Origin: Chthoniobacterales bacterium
GTDB lineage: Bacteria > Verrucomicrobiota > Verrucomicrobiia > Chthoniobacterales > JAATET01
Assembly (NCBI GenBank): GCA_036569045.1
Contig: DATCRI010000014.1
Coordinates: 1 to 38,425, forward strand
Reading direction: 5' to 3'
DNA: 38,425 nucleotides
A program made the position numbers and the translations under genes. Positions 1,772 through 5,007 of the stretch are shown one piece after another; the first letter of the stretch is position 1, and each line of letters starts with the position of its first letter. The notes beneath the pieces were generated by a model that was not told where the DNA came from, ran no database searches, and saw only the letters and a program-made list of their open reading frames with translations.

Positions 1772-2887
1772 ATGAGCACGATCCGAGTCCTTGTCGGCAC
1801 CCGCAAGGGAGCATTTCTCCTCACGTCCGATGGCCAGCGCGAGCGGTGGGAGGTGAGCGGGCCGCATTTCGCCGGCTGGGAGATCTATCACCTCAAGGGA
1901 TCGCCGGTGGATCCCAATCGCCTCTACGCCTCGGTTTCCAGCGGGTGGTTCGGGCAGGTGATCCAGCGCTCCGACGACGGTGGCGCCACGTGGGCGCCGG
2001 TCGGAAACGCGTTTCTCTACGACGGCGTGCCCGGCACGCATCAATGGTATGACGGCACGCAGCATCCGTGGGAATTCAAGCGCGTCTGGCATCTCGAGCC
2101 CTCGTTCACCGATCCGGACCATGTCTACGCCGGGGTGGAGGATGCCGCGCTTTTCGAGTCGAAGGACGGCGGCGCGACCTGGACCGAGCTCTCCGGCCTG
2201 CGCCAGCACGATACCGGCCCGCTCTGGCAGCCGGGAGCCGGCGGGATGTGTCTGCACACGATCCTGCTCGACCCCGTGAACGCCGGCCGGATGTTCGTTG
2301 CGATCTCGGCGGCGGGTGCATTCCGCAGCGACGATTTCGGAAAAACGTGGCGACCGATCAACAAGGGGCTCGTCTCGAATTTCATGCCGAATCCTACCGG
2401 GGAGGTCGGTCATTGCGTGCACCATATCGCGTTTCACAAGGCGAATCCGGAGACGCTCTTCATGCAGAAGCACTGGGACGTGATGCGCAGTGATGACGGT
2501 GGCAACAACTGGCGCGAGGTGAGCGGCAACCTGCCGACGGACTTCGGCTTCCCGATCGACGTGAATGCGAACGAGCCCGAGACGATCTACGTGGTGCCGA
2601 TCAAGAGCGACTCCGAGCATTTTCCAATCGACGGGGCGTTGCAGGTCTGGCGCAGCCGCACGGGCGGCGGGGAGTGGGAGGCGCTCACGAAGGGGCTGCC
2701 GCAGCGGGATTGTTACGTGAACGTTCTGCGTGACGCGATGGCGGTGGATGCGCTCGATCCCTGCGGGGTGTATTTCGGCACGACCGGCGGCCAGGTCTAT
2801 TGCTCCGCCGACGCGGGCGATTCCTGGAATGCCATCGTGCGCGATCTGCCGGCGGTGCTGTCGGTGGAAGTGCAGACGGTGCCATGA
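1772..2887 (+). CDS. BNR/Asp-box repeat beta-propeller protein (sialidase-like fold)
   Basis: 371-residue protein built of repeated Asp-box motifs (S-x-D-x-G-x-T-W type): SDDGGATW at residues 67-74, then [24 protein letters not shown] and SADAGDSW. This is the pattern of WD40/YVTN/BNR-like, VPS10-type or exo-sialidase-like propellers. No signal peptide is visible; it starts [15 protein letters not shown], so a cytosolic location is likely. ATG at 1772 is chosen because the family begins at this [10 protein letters not shown] strand; the open frame extends upstream but without homology-like sequence. I see no clear sialidase catalytic Arg triad, so enzymatic sialidase activity should not be assumed. 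It overlaps the next gene by ATGA, which suggests translational coupling with the MoaD/ThiS-like protein. Confidence 0.87.
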
Positions 2888-3180
2888 TCCGGGTCGTCCT
2901 GCCGGCCCATCTGCGCACGCTGGCCCGAGTCGACGGCGATGTGGAGCTCGAGGTCGGAGCGCCGGTGACGATCCGCTCGGTGCTCGACGCGCTCGAGATG
3001 AAGTATCCGATGCTGCGGGGGGCGATTCGCGACCACGGCACGCTCAAGCGCCGGGCGTTTGTGCGCTTCTTTGCGTGCCAGCAGGATCTCTCGCACGATT
3101 CCGTCGACGCTCCGCTCCCGGACATCGTCGCGAGTGGCGCGGAACCGTTCGTCGTGCTCGGCGCGATCGCCGGCGGCTAG
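2884..3180 (+). CDS. MoaD/ThiS-family ubiquitin-like protein
   Basis: 98-residue protein of the beta-grasp MoaD/ThiS type. It opens [14 protein letters not shown], carries the [15 protein letters not shown] helix region typical of MoaD-like proteins, and ends in ...AIAGG. A C-terminal Gly-Gly is what MoaD/ThiS sulfur carriers and ubiquitin-like modifiers use for adenylation and thiocarboxylation. The start is fixed by the ATGA overlap with the BNR gene. No MoaE, ThiG, MoeB/ThiF-type activator or other molybdopterin/thiamine gene lies in the window, so a partner enzyme, if needed, is elsewhere. I infer a paired function with the upstream propeller protein; whether it is a sulfur carrier or a protein modifier is open. 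Confidence 0.83.
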
Positions 3181-3246: not shown

Positions 3247-5007
3247 ATGGACGCGAAACTCGCCCTGCGACGGTCCTTGCGCGACCAGCCGACGCGCTGG
3301 GGCGCGGCCGTTTTCCTGGCGAAGGCGACCATGCTCCGGTGGAAGCGGGCGCTGGCCGAGCCTCCGGGGCGCCGTCCTCGCCGGCTCGCGCGCCAGCCAT
3401 TGTCGCCGGATTTTCACCTCCTGGCGGAATCCCGCTCCCCGCTGTATGCCCAGATCTCTGCGGCCGAGTGGGCGTTGCAGGCGGGGAAGGTGCAGAATCT
3501 GCGACTGGCCGCCCGCGCGCTGGATGGCCTCGTCGTCCCGGCGGGCGAGGTGTTCAGCTTCTGGGCGAATGTGGGGCGCGCGACGCGGCGGCGGGGATTC
3601 GTCAATGGGCGCGAGCTGCGGGAGGGCTGCGTGATTCCCAATATCGGCGGCGGCCTTTGCCAGCTTTCGAATGCGCTCCACGACGTCGCGCTGCAGGCCG
3701 GGCTCGAGATCGTCGAGCGGCACGCCCACACCCGGCAGGTTTCGGACAGTCGGTTCGCCGGCCGCGATGCCACGGTCTTCTGGAATTACGTCGACCTGCG
3801 TTTCCGGGCGAAGGAGGACACCCGGATTGCGGCGGAATTGTCGGCCGATGAATTGATCGTGCGGCTTGCCTCGGCGACCGGCCTGCCGTCGGCGCGAGAG
3901 ATTGCGCCCGGATGCGCGACGGGCCTGCGGGCGGCGGAGAGCTGCGAGACCTGCGGCAGGGCCGATTGTTTTCGGCACGCGGAGGCCGTGTCGCTGCCCC
4001 GCACCCATGGGGACGCCTGGGTGGTCGATGCGTGGATGCCCGAGCACGACGGCTGGATGTGCGCCCATCGCCAGCCGGCGGATCACCTGTTGCTGCCGAT
4101 GGATGGTCGCCGGCTTGGGCTCCGCGCCTATCGCTGGTTGAGCGAGGGTTTCGCAGCCGTGCACCAGGCGCCGTTTACGGTGCTTCGGCGGTCGATCACA
4201 TCCCGTCGGCTGGCGAGCCAGGGAGCGACGCGGCAGCGCGCTTTGCTCGCGATGGACGAGGCGATGGCGATCGCGCTGGCCCGCCGGATTCCGCCGCTCG
4301 CGCCGCATCTCACGATCAGCCAGAATCTCCTGCCCTTCCTCTGGCGCGACGGCTGGCTCGGGGGCCGGACATTCGACGTGCTGATGACGCGTCTGCCGCT
4401 GCACGAAATGGAGGCGCGGCTCGATCGGGCCGCCCTCGCTCGTCCGGAAAGTCCGACACTCGCCGACTTTCGAGCCCCGGCCGAAATCGTGGAATGGGAA
4501 CGCCGGGCTCTCGCCGCCGCCCGGGCCTGGGTGACGCCGCACGCGGCCATCGCCACGCTCGCCGGTTCGCGCGCTCGCCCTGTGGACTGGGAAATGCCCG
4601 CCGTGTCGATCGCCCGTCGGGGCACGGAGATCGTGTTTCCTGTGAGCACCCTCGCACGCAAGGGCGCCTGCGAATTGCGCGAGGCGCTCCTCGCTCTCGA
4701 GCTGCCGCTCCGGCTTGTCGGGCCCGTGATCGAAGGGGAGGATTTCTGGCGCGACGTTCGCCTGTCCCATTCGGAAGGCGATTGGCTGGACGGCGCGGCC
4801 GCGGTGGTGCTTCCGGCATGGATCGAACATCAACCGCGGCGCTTGCTGCGGGCGCTCGCGGCGGGTGTGCCGGTGATTGCCAGCGAGGCGTGCGGGCTGA
4901 CGCCGAGGCCGGGACTGACGATCGTGCCGACCGGCGATGTCGAGGCGCTGCGAATCGCGCTGGAGGCGATCGCGGAGCCTACGCGCCGTTCTCGATGTGC
5001 GAGATGA
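3247..5007 (+). CDS. VanW-domain protein fused to a glycosyltransferase-like C-terminus
   Basis: 586 residues with two parts. Residues about 60-200 are a VanW domain: FSFWANVG at 103-110 and GGGLCQLSNALHDVAL at 134-149, followed by the VERHAHT segment. A cysteine cluster follows: C223, then C233, C236 and C241 (CxxCx4C), possibly a metal site. The C-terminal third resembles the second Rossmann half of a GT-B/GT4 glycosyltransferase: a segment around residues 515-545 (AAAVVLPAWIEHQPRRLLRA then AGVPVIASEACGL) looks like the donor-binding region. The first GT half is not recognisable. No signal peptide or clear membrane segment is present. VanW is known from glycopeptide-resistance clusters but its biochemistry is unclear. 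The gene's last 29 nt overlap the convergent GGDEF gene. Confidence 0.8.
   Translation: MDAKLALRRSLRDQPTRWGAAVFLAKATMLRWKRALAEPPGRRPRRLARQPLSPDFHLLAESRSPLYAQISAAEWALQAGKVQNLRLAARALDGLVVPAGEVFSFWANVGRATRRRGFVNGRELREGCVIPNIGGGLCQLSNALHDVALQAGLEIVERHAHTRQVSDSRFAGRDATVFWNYVDLRFRAKEDTRIAAELSADELIVRLASATGLPSAREIAPGCATGLRAAESCETCGRADCFRHAEAVSLPRTHGDAWVVDAWMPEHDGWMCAHRQPADHLLLPMDGRRLGLRAYRWLSEGFAAVHQAPFTVLRRSITSRRLASQGATRQRALLAMDEAMAIALARRIPPLAPHLTISQNLLPFLWRDGWLGGRTFDVLMTRLPLHEMEARLDRAALARPESPTLADFRAPAEIVEWERRALAAARAWVTPHAAIATLAGSRARPVDWEMPAVSIARRGTEIVFPVSTLARKGACELREALLALELPLRLVGPVIEGEDFWRDVRLSHSEGDWLDGAAAVVLPAWIEHQPRRLLRALAAGVPVIASEACGLTPRPGLTIVPTGDVEALRIALEAIAEPTRRSRCAR

Follow-up and report, generated by a model that had tools for sequence, protein, structure and literature searches.

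The protein reported here contains a domain of the VanW kind, for which cell-wall cross-linking was demonstrated recently, and which the consulted parts of PMC12729407 present as a second family of L,D-transpeptidases with a triad of cysteine, histidine and a small residue in C. difficile. The enzymes are treated as well in PMC11986978, as far as the portion seen extends. The same parts of PMC12729407, a review, state that some VanW proteins have no transpeptidase activity, and describe the family as mostly Gram-positive. For a second element of the protein, a cysteine motif, the available section of PMC4389238 gives a precedent in ThiC, where the spacing CX2CX4C serves a [4Fe-4S] cluster. In the published titles and abstract openings on VanW that we surveyed, no fusion of VanW to a glycosyltransferase was found.

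We analyzed a window of 38,425 nucleotides from a Chthoniobacterales bacterium, in which one gene encodes such a fusion. Its features are as follows.

3247-5007, forward strand: VanW-glycosyltransferase fusion gene encoding 586 aa, a single open reading frame to which 75 relatives align over their full length.
3247-3366, forward strand: basic N-terminal helices (residues 1-40; DSSP of the model, hydropathy) without a visible signal peptide or transmembrane helix.
3487-3855, forward strand: VanW domain (PF04294, Pfam), residues 81-203.
3628-3630, forward strand: C128, an invariant cysteine of the fused clade (76/76 aligned proteins), proposed fourth metal ligand.
3658-3660, forward strand: C138 in GGGLCQ, proposed catalytic nucleophile (87/87 glycosyltransferase-fused rows, 48/50 other rows).
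3727-3729, forward strand: H161, proposed catalytic histidine (87/87 fused rows, 49/50 other rows).
3793-3795, forward strand: D183, possible third active-site residue (invariant in 104 aligned domains).
3943-3969, forward strand: CxxCx4C cluster (C233, C236, C241), each cysteine in 76/76 aligned proteins.
4000-4611, forward strand: N-terminal Rossmann domain of the GT-B fold, about residues 252-455, missed by Pfam and placed by the model and structural alignments.
4612-5001, forward strand: C-terminal Rossmann domain of the GT-B fold, about residues 456-585, with R471-K472-G473 and E527 (Pfam, model, conservation).

The initial annotation described a VanW domain and a CxxCx4C cluster in one polypeptide without a signal peptide, and this description is borne out. 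The 586-aa frame contains both the VanW domain at residues 81-203 (122 bits against a cut-off of 27, E 1.2e-35) and C233-x2-C236-x4-C241, and the highest 19-residue hydropathy near the N-terminus of the window protein is 0.65. A hydrophobic start was absent in 75 of the 76 aligned family members by a crude hydropathy test, which flags just 6 of 9 YkuD neighbour proteins and so falls short of a true signal-peptide predictor. Neither the window protein nor the aligned members gave a Pfam match to a peptidoglycan-binding domain.

Relatives were collected by a scan of genome contigs, and the best 80 of 155 were kept. Seventy-five of these exceed 530 aa (range 566-645 aa) and form, with the window protein, the 76-row family alignment, at 37-54% identity to the window protein; left out of the alignment are the five that do not exceed 530 aa and L081, which duplicates the window gene. 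Four of the short relatives (L034, L044, L070, L078) run into a contig end and the fifth, L061, consists of two ORFs. According to the record titles of the best 80 of 155, seven groups carry the fusion: Verrucomicrobia, Acidobacteria, cyanobacteria, Proteobacteria, Eremiobacterota, Bacteroidia and Myxococcales. A single record is titled Mycobacterium; its place in the tree is beside Inquilinus, and the label is probably wrong. All other named hosts are diderms. The distribution is patchy. Among 194 genomes from the window's phylum, 4 have full-length matches, its own genome counted, and 3 more have N-terminal-only matches. Genomes with any VanW, the centre genome counted in each survey, numbered 5 among 398 in the Labrys phylum, 10 among 247 in that of L009 (Blastocatellia) and 19 among 244 in that of L022 (Pseudanabaena). 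Because the scan patterns were built from the window query, distant fusions, including Gram-positive ones, may be missed by these counts. No VanW other than the fusion protein was found in the genome of the window, and a second VanW match with an open frame of 276-463 aa is present in 7 of 28 fusion-holding genomes (L009, L013, L022, L031, L053, L058, L076). Among the 48 plasmid and 3 phage records matched, no match spanned 80% of the query, and the viral_contigs set held no confirmed copy of the fusion gene.

In a tree of 132 VanW rows, 86 of them fused and L104 included, the fused domains form one clade (support 98/91). This clade and 33 solo rows are split from 13 rows that contain four of Gram-positive type (99/96; enterococcal VanW is absent from the tree). 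The protein encoded at L104 961-2472 (minus strand) is a member of the fused clade that has C128 and the cysteine cluster and is without the C-terminal glycosyltransferase domain. Domain anatomy, conservation and the single clade of fused VanW domains are firm observations.

The annotation's view that the protein ends in half a glycosyltransferase proved wrong. The full-length model (mean pLDDT 90.9, pTM 0.90; weaker at residues 1-10, in the loop 161-180 after H161 and in the linker 211-250) shows a complete two-domain GT-B at residues 252-584. Only residues 512-575 match Pfam glycosyltransferase models, and the group-1 match is barely at the cut-off. With VIA-align, the top match of residues 252-584 was sucrose-phosphate synthase (Z 19.8, 295 residues, rmsd 4.7), and other whole GT-B enzymes gave Z scores of 18.2 (MshA), 18.0 (BshA) and 17.9 (WaaG). 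Since the segment aligns onto whole enzymes, both Rossmann domains are present, and on the evidence of the model the first is simply too divergent for Pfam. Across the family, Glyco_trans_1_4 is matched at 0.01 by 74 of the 76 proteins, and an N-terminal glycosyltransferase model by one. The RKG motif is kept (R471 in 75/76, K472 in 72/76), and E266, R409 and E418 are invariant polar residues of this part. The EX7E motif is incomplete: its first glutamate (E527) is found in 72/76 and its second in 1/76, and WaaG has both at the aligned places. The modelled GT-B half is likely, although unproven, to be a working glycosyltransferase.

For the VanW half, 163 rows were merged to 137 distinct ones, 87 glycosyltransferase-fused and 50 other. 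C138 and H161 occur jointly in 87/87 fused and 48/50 other rows, the two exceptions being an all-gap fragment (L042_2) and a Rhodococcus row with serine for the cysteine. Five columns (G135, G136, C138, H161, D183) are invariant in 104 aligned VanW domains, a statement valid for those 104 only, as the set excludes L104, L155, L159, L162, L163 (where serine replaces C138), the L042 fragment and 16 more rows, and the Rhodococcus row is outside it. Judged by motif only, C138 and H161 likely correspond to the active-site residues of the VanW L,D-transpeptidases in C. difficile. An acyl-transfer site that uses a thiol, in the manner of the transpeptidases, is likely in the VanW half. Modelled alone, the domain reached a pLDDT of 87.4. 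No solved relative was found by sequence (best E 0.53) or, for the model, by Foldseek at E <= 0.001, and the best VIA Z was 4.5. The NCBIfam models of resistance-associated VanW score far below their curated cut-offs (NF033128 91/365 bits, NF033122 68/610, NF033123 75/600), and identity to VanW-B is 31% over residues 42-230.

Cysteines 128, 138, 233, 236 and 241 are invariant in the 76 aligned proteins, and C549 is present in 73. C128 is found in 87/87 fused rows and CxxCx4C in 86/87; the remaining row, L070, carries CX2CX3C instead. Among the 50 other VanW rows both C128 and CxxCx4C are missing from all but L104, itself of the fused clade. Since that clade is one group, a single gain of the four cysteines, together with the fusion or close to it, is probable, and their joint presence amounts to one event. 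The simplest reading of this pattern is that C128, C233, C236 and C241 make up a four-cysteine metal site, which is likely but unproven. H244 was considered as the fourth ligand and rejected, with histidine in just 43 of 76 proteins.

An all-against-all comparison of 2981 flanking ORFs revealed no neighbour conserved family-wide, the widest group reaching 13 of 81 loci. A gene for a YkuD L,D-transpeptidase directly adjoins the fusion gene in 10 of 79 loci, in three lineages, and no YkuD neighbour was found in the other 69; the 79 are the loci with called genes, some of them without a neighbour on one side at a contig end, and exclude the window locus. Eight of the ten come from a single Verrucomicrobiales clade with 16 tree rows, 8 of which have a YkuD gene; it lies just downstream (gap -13 to +77). 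In L050 the YkuD gene lies 33 bp upstream on the same strand (Pfam E 5.8e-21), and in L048 it is convergent (E 4.9e-7) and the only YkuD found in that genome. Two of the ten, in L046 (6.3e-5) and in one Verrucomicrobiales locus, miss the Pfam threshold of 1e-5 and were recognised by phmmer. Three of the eight Verrucomicrobiales proteins were scanned with NCBIfam, and match LdtF/DpaA/YafK with E 2e-67 to 4e-63, under the equivalog cut-off. Given 176 YkuD hits over 21 genomes, chance alone should yield about 0.23 such neighbours across 79 loci, and the probability of three or more lineages with YkuD is about 0.002, a value that assumes one gene per kb and is uncorrected for the choice of the family after the tally. 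Among the ORFs of 165 loci, phmmer with two queries, which do not catch all YkuD, found none away from a VanW-glycosyltransferase gene. Among 73 of 74 immediate same-strand neighbours (Pfam, 1e-5; a 1979-aa neighbour in L001 was left out), YkuD counted 7 and the others of the first 25 families listed at most 2. Among 265 neighbours within two genes (100-1000 aa, 1e-5), with kinship ignored, the first 25 families listed included YkuD (3+5), DUF58 and VWA (6 each), and dehydrogenase, helicase and ABC transporter (5 each).

At the window locus we read a MoaD/ThiS-like ORF upstream of the fusion gene and a convergent GGDEF gene downstream, so there is no YkuD link there. The MoaD/ThiS-like assignment, also by reading, concerns a small ORF at 2884-3180 that ends in Gly-Gly and has no NCBIfam match; the adjoining ORF at 1706-2887 encodes a protein that matches a glycosylhydrolase model under the cut-off. 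In nine other loci (L009 7726-8298 and relatives) a protein of about 160 aa is encoded after the fusion gene on the same strand, and the L009 product has no Pfam match.

Solo VanW genes have neighbours of their own, of which 82 of 136 were scanned. On two Bartonella plasmids the solo gene adjoins an M15 metallopeptidase gene, and on an Aureibacter plasmid it is one gene away from one; one Bartonella copy resembles D-Ala-D-Ala dipeptidase models with scores under the cut-offs, and phmmer found no M15 relatives in the other loci searched. In seven Acidobacteria genomes the solo gene is clustered with birA, an acidic 108-aa ORF (orf108) and coaX (L172 1139-6062 and the corresponding stretches of L109, L110, L173, L174, L177 and L178; of these the neighbour scan took in L109, L172 and part of L110). 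In L110 the cluster is interrupted by a 921-aa gene, and the ergothioneine genes egtB and egtD lie upstream in 5 of the 7. Pfam recognises nothing in the 108-aa product of L172. In L118 and L119 the gene calls put the VanW gene in the wrong place.

We propose that the fusion protein is cytoplasmic, possibly membrane-peripheral, and combines two enzymes in one chain. The VanW half would be of the L,D-transpeptidase kind, a thiol acyltransferase or peptidase with a Cys-His site that works on peptidoglycan stem peptides, on cytosolic or lipid-linked precursors or on recycled muropeptides, and the complete GT4-like GT-B half would move a sugar onto the same or a related substrate. C128, C233, C236 and C241 would form one metal or Fe-S site that pins the linker to the VanW domain. 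The metal, the location, the substrate, and both activities with their coupling are inferred; cytoplasmic action on peptidoglycan peptides is the guess best supported, by the family to which the domain belongs and by limited evidence from gene neighbours. We hold this explanation as a whole tentatively, at somewhat less than an even chance. Several points speak against it: the VanW transpeptidases described in the available parts of PMC12729407 are membrane-attached with peptidoglycan-binding domains and the fusion has no signal peptide, some VanW proteins lack transpeptidase activity by the same source, the second glutamate of EX7E is lost, and no YkuD neighbour was found in 69 of 79 loci or at the window locus. 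The annotation had further hinted that VanW domains act in glycan or envelope sugar chemistry. The envelope part of that idea survives, on the strength of the known VanW L,D-transpeptidases (PMC12729407, as consulted), the retained cysteine and histidine and the YkuD neighbours in three lineages, but the same evidence favours peptide chemistry on peptidoglycan over sugar chemistry by VanW itself. A bolder version, in which metal-stapled cytoplasmic L,D-transpeptidase-type thiol chemistry is coupled to the addition of sugars to peptidoglycan precursors or recycled muropeptides in diderms, is perhaps gated by Fe-S redox state and yields novel glycosylated peptidoglycan species, seems to us improbable.

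The loss of the second EX7E glutamate in all but one of 76 proteins, the single match to an N-terminal Pfam glycosyltransferase model and the truncated L104 would also fit a GT-B half that is a non-catalytic sugar- or nucleotide-binding scaffold, with VanW as the sole enzyme; but R471, K472 and E527 are kept (75, 72 and 72 of 76) and E266, R409 and E418 are invariant, which suggests a working site, and we consider a mere scaffold unlikely. Equally unlikely in our estimate is a fusion that makes a small soluble metabolite, such as a glycosylated peptide or thiol, with VanW forming a thioester or amide and no role in peptidoglycan. The want of a family-wide neighbour agrees with such a product, as do the solo VanW genes beside birA, orf108 and coaX (five of these genomes also carry egtB and egtD upstream), and the fold matches to MshA and BshA, although their Z scores are tied with those of many GT4-like enzymes. 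Against it stand the YkuD neighbours in three lineages, the M15 genes beside some solo VanW, and the action of characterised VanW enzymes on peptidoglycan (PMC12729407, in the parts seen). The likeness to VanW-B and the patchy distribution could further point to a role in resistance, as a stand-alone accessory factor against glycopeptides or beta-lactams in the manner of enterococcal VanW. We regard this as very unlikely, with 91 bits scored against a cut-off of 365 and no van gene beside the window gene (by reading) or among the Pfam families listed near its relatives. The named hosts are moreover diderm, bar the Mycobacterium-titled record, and an outer membrane bars the entry of vancomycin. 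An artefact has next to no probability, be it a chimeric assembly, a chance fusion or the frame error that the annotation had itself allowed for: apart from L061, split in two ORFs as 1 of 80, nothing was found in its favour, and a frame error is excluded by the 75 of 80 kept relatives of more than 530 aa, which align along their length and fall into one clade.

On the two-enzyme reading, the fusion protein may perform cell-wall chemistry within the cell, and it recurs in many Gram-negative bacteria. The family is a diderm one in which a VanW active site is joined to a complete glycosyltransferase, adjacent to YkuD in some lineages, and it offers a direct handle on the role of VanW proteins that have no export signal.

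Compared with known systems, the protein shares with LdtCd4 and LdtCd5 of C. difficile the VanW domain and, by motif and not by alignment of the sequences, the Cys-His active site. According to the consulted parts of PMC12729407 those enzymes are membrane-attached and have PG4 peptidoglycan-binding domains; the fusion protein has neither, and adds four cysteines and the GT-B half. Solo VanW proteins of cytosolic type (VanW-B, VanW-G and those of Acidobacteria, Bartonella and Aureibacter) resemble it in the VanW domain and over part of the N-terminal region, and eight solo sequences read by eye have, as in the fusion, no obvious signal peptide. They are about 270 aa long and have no glycosyltransferase, and C128 and CxxCx4C are absent in those examined, the enterococcal ones excluded. 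With ThiC the protein shares the CX2CX4C spacing. With GT4-like GT-B enzymes (WaaG, PglA, MshA, BshA) the protein has in common the complete fold, the RKG motif and the first glutamate of EX7E, but its N-terminal domain is unseen by Pfam, the second glutamate is lost, and a VanW domain is attached.
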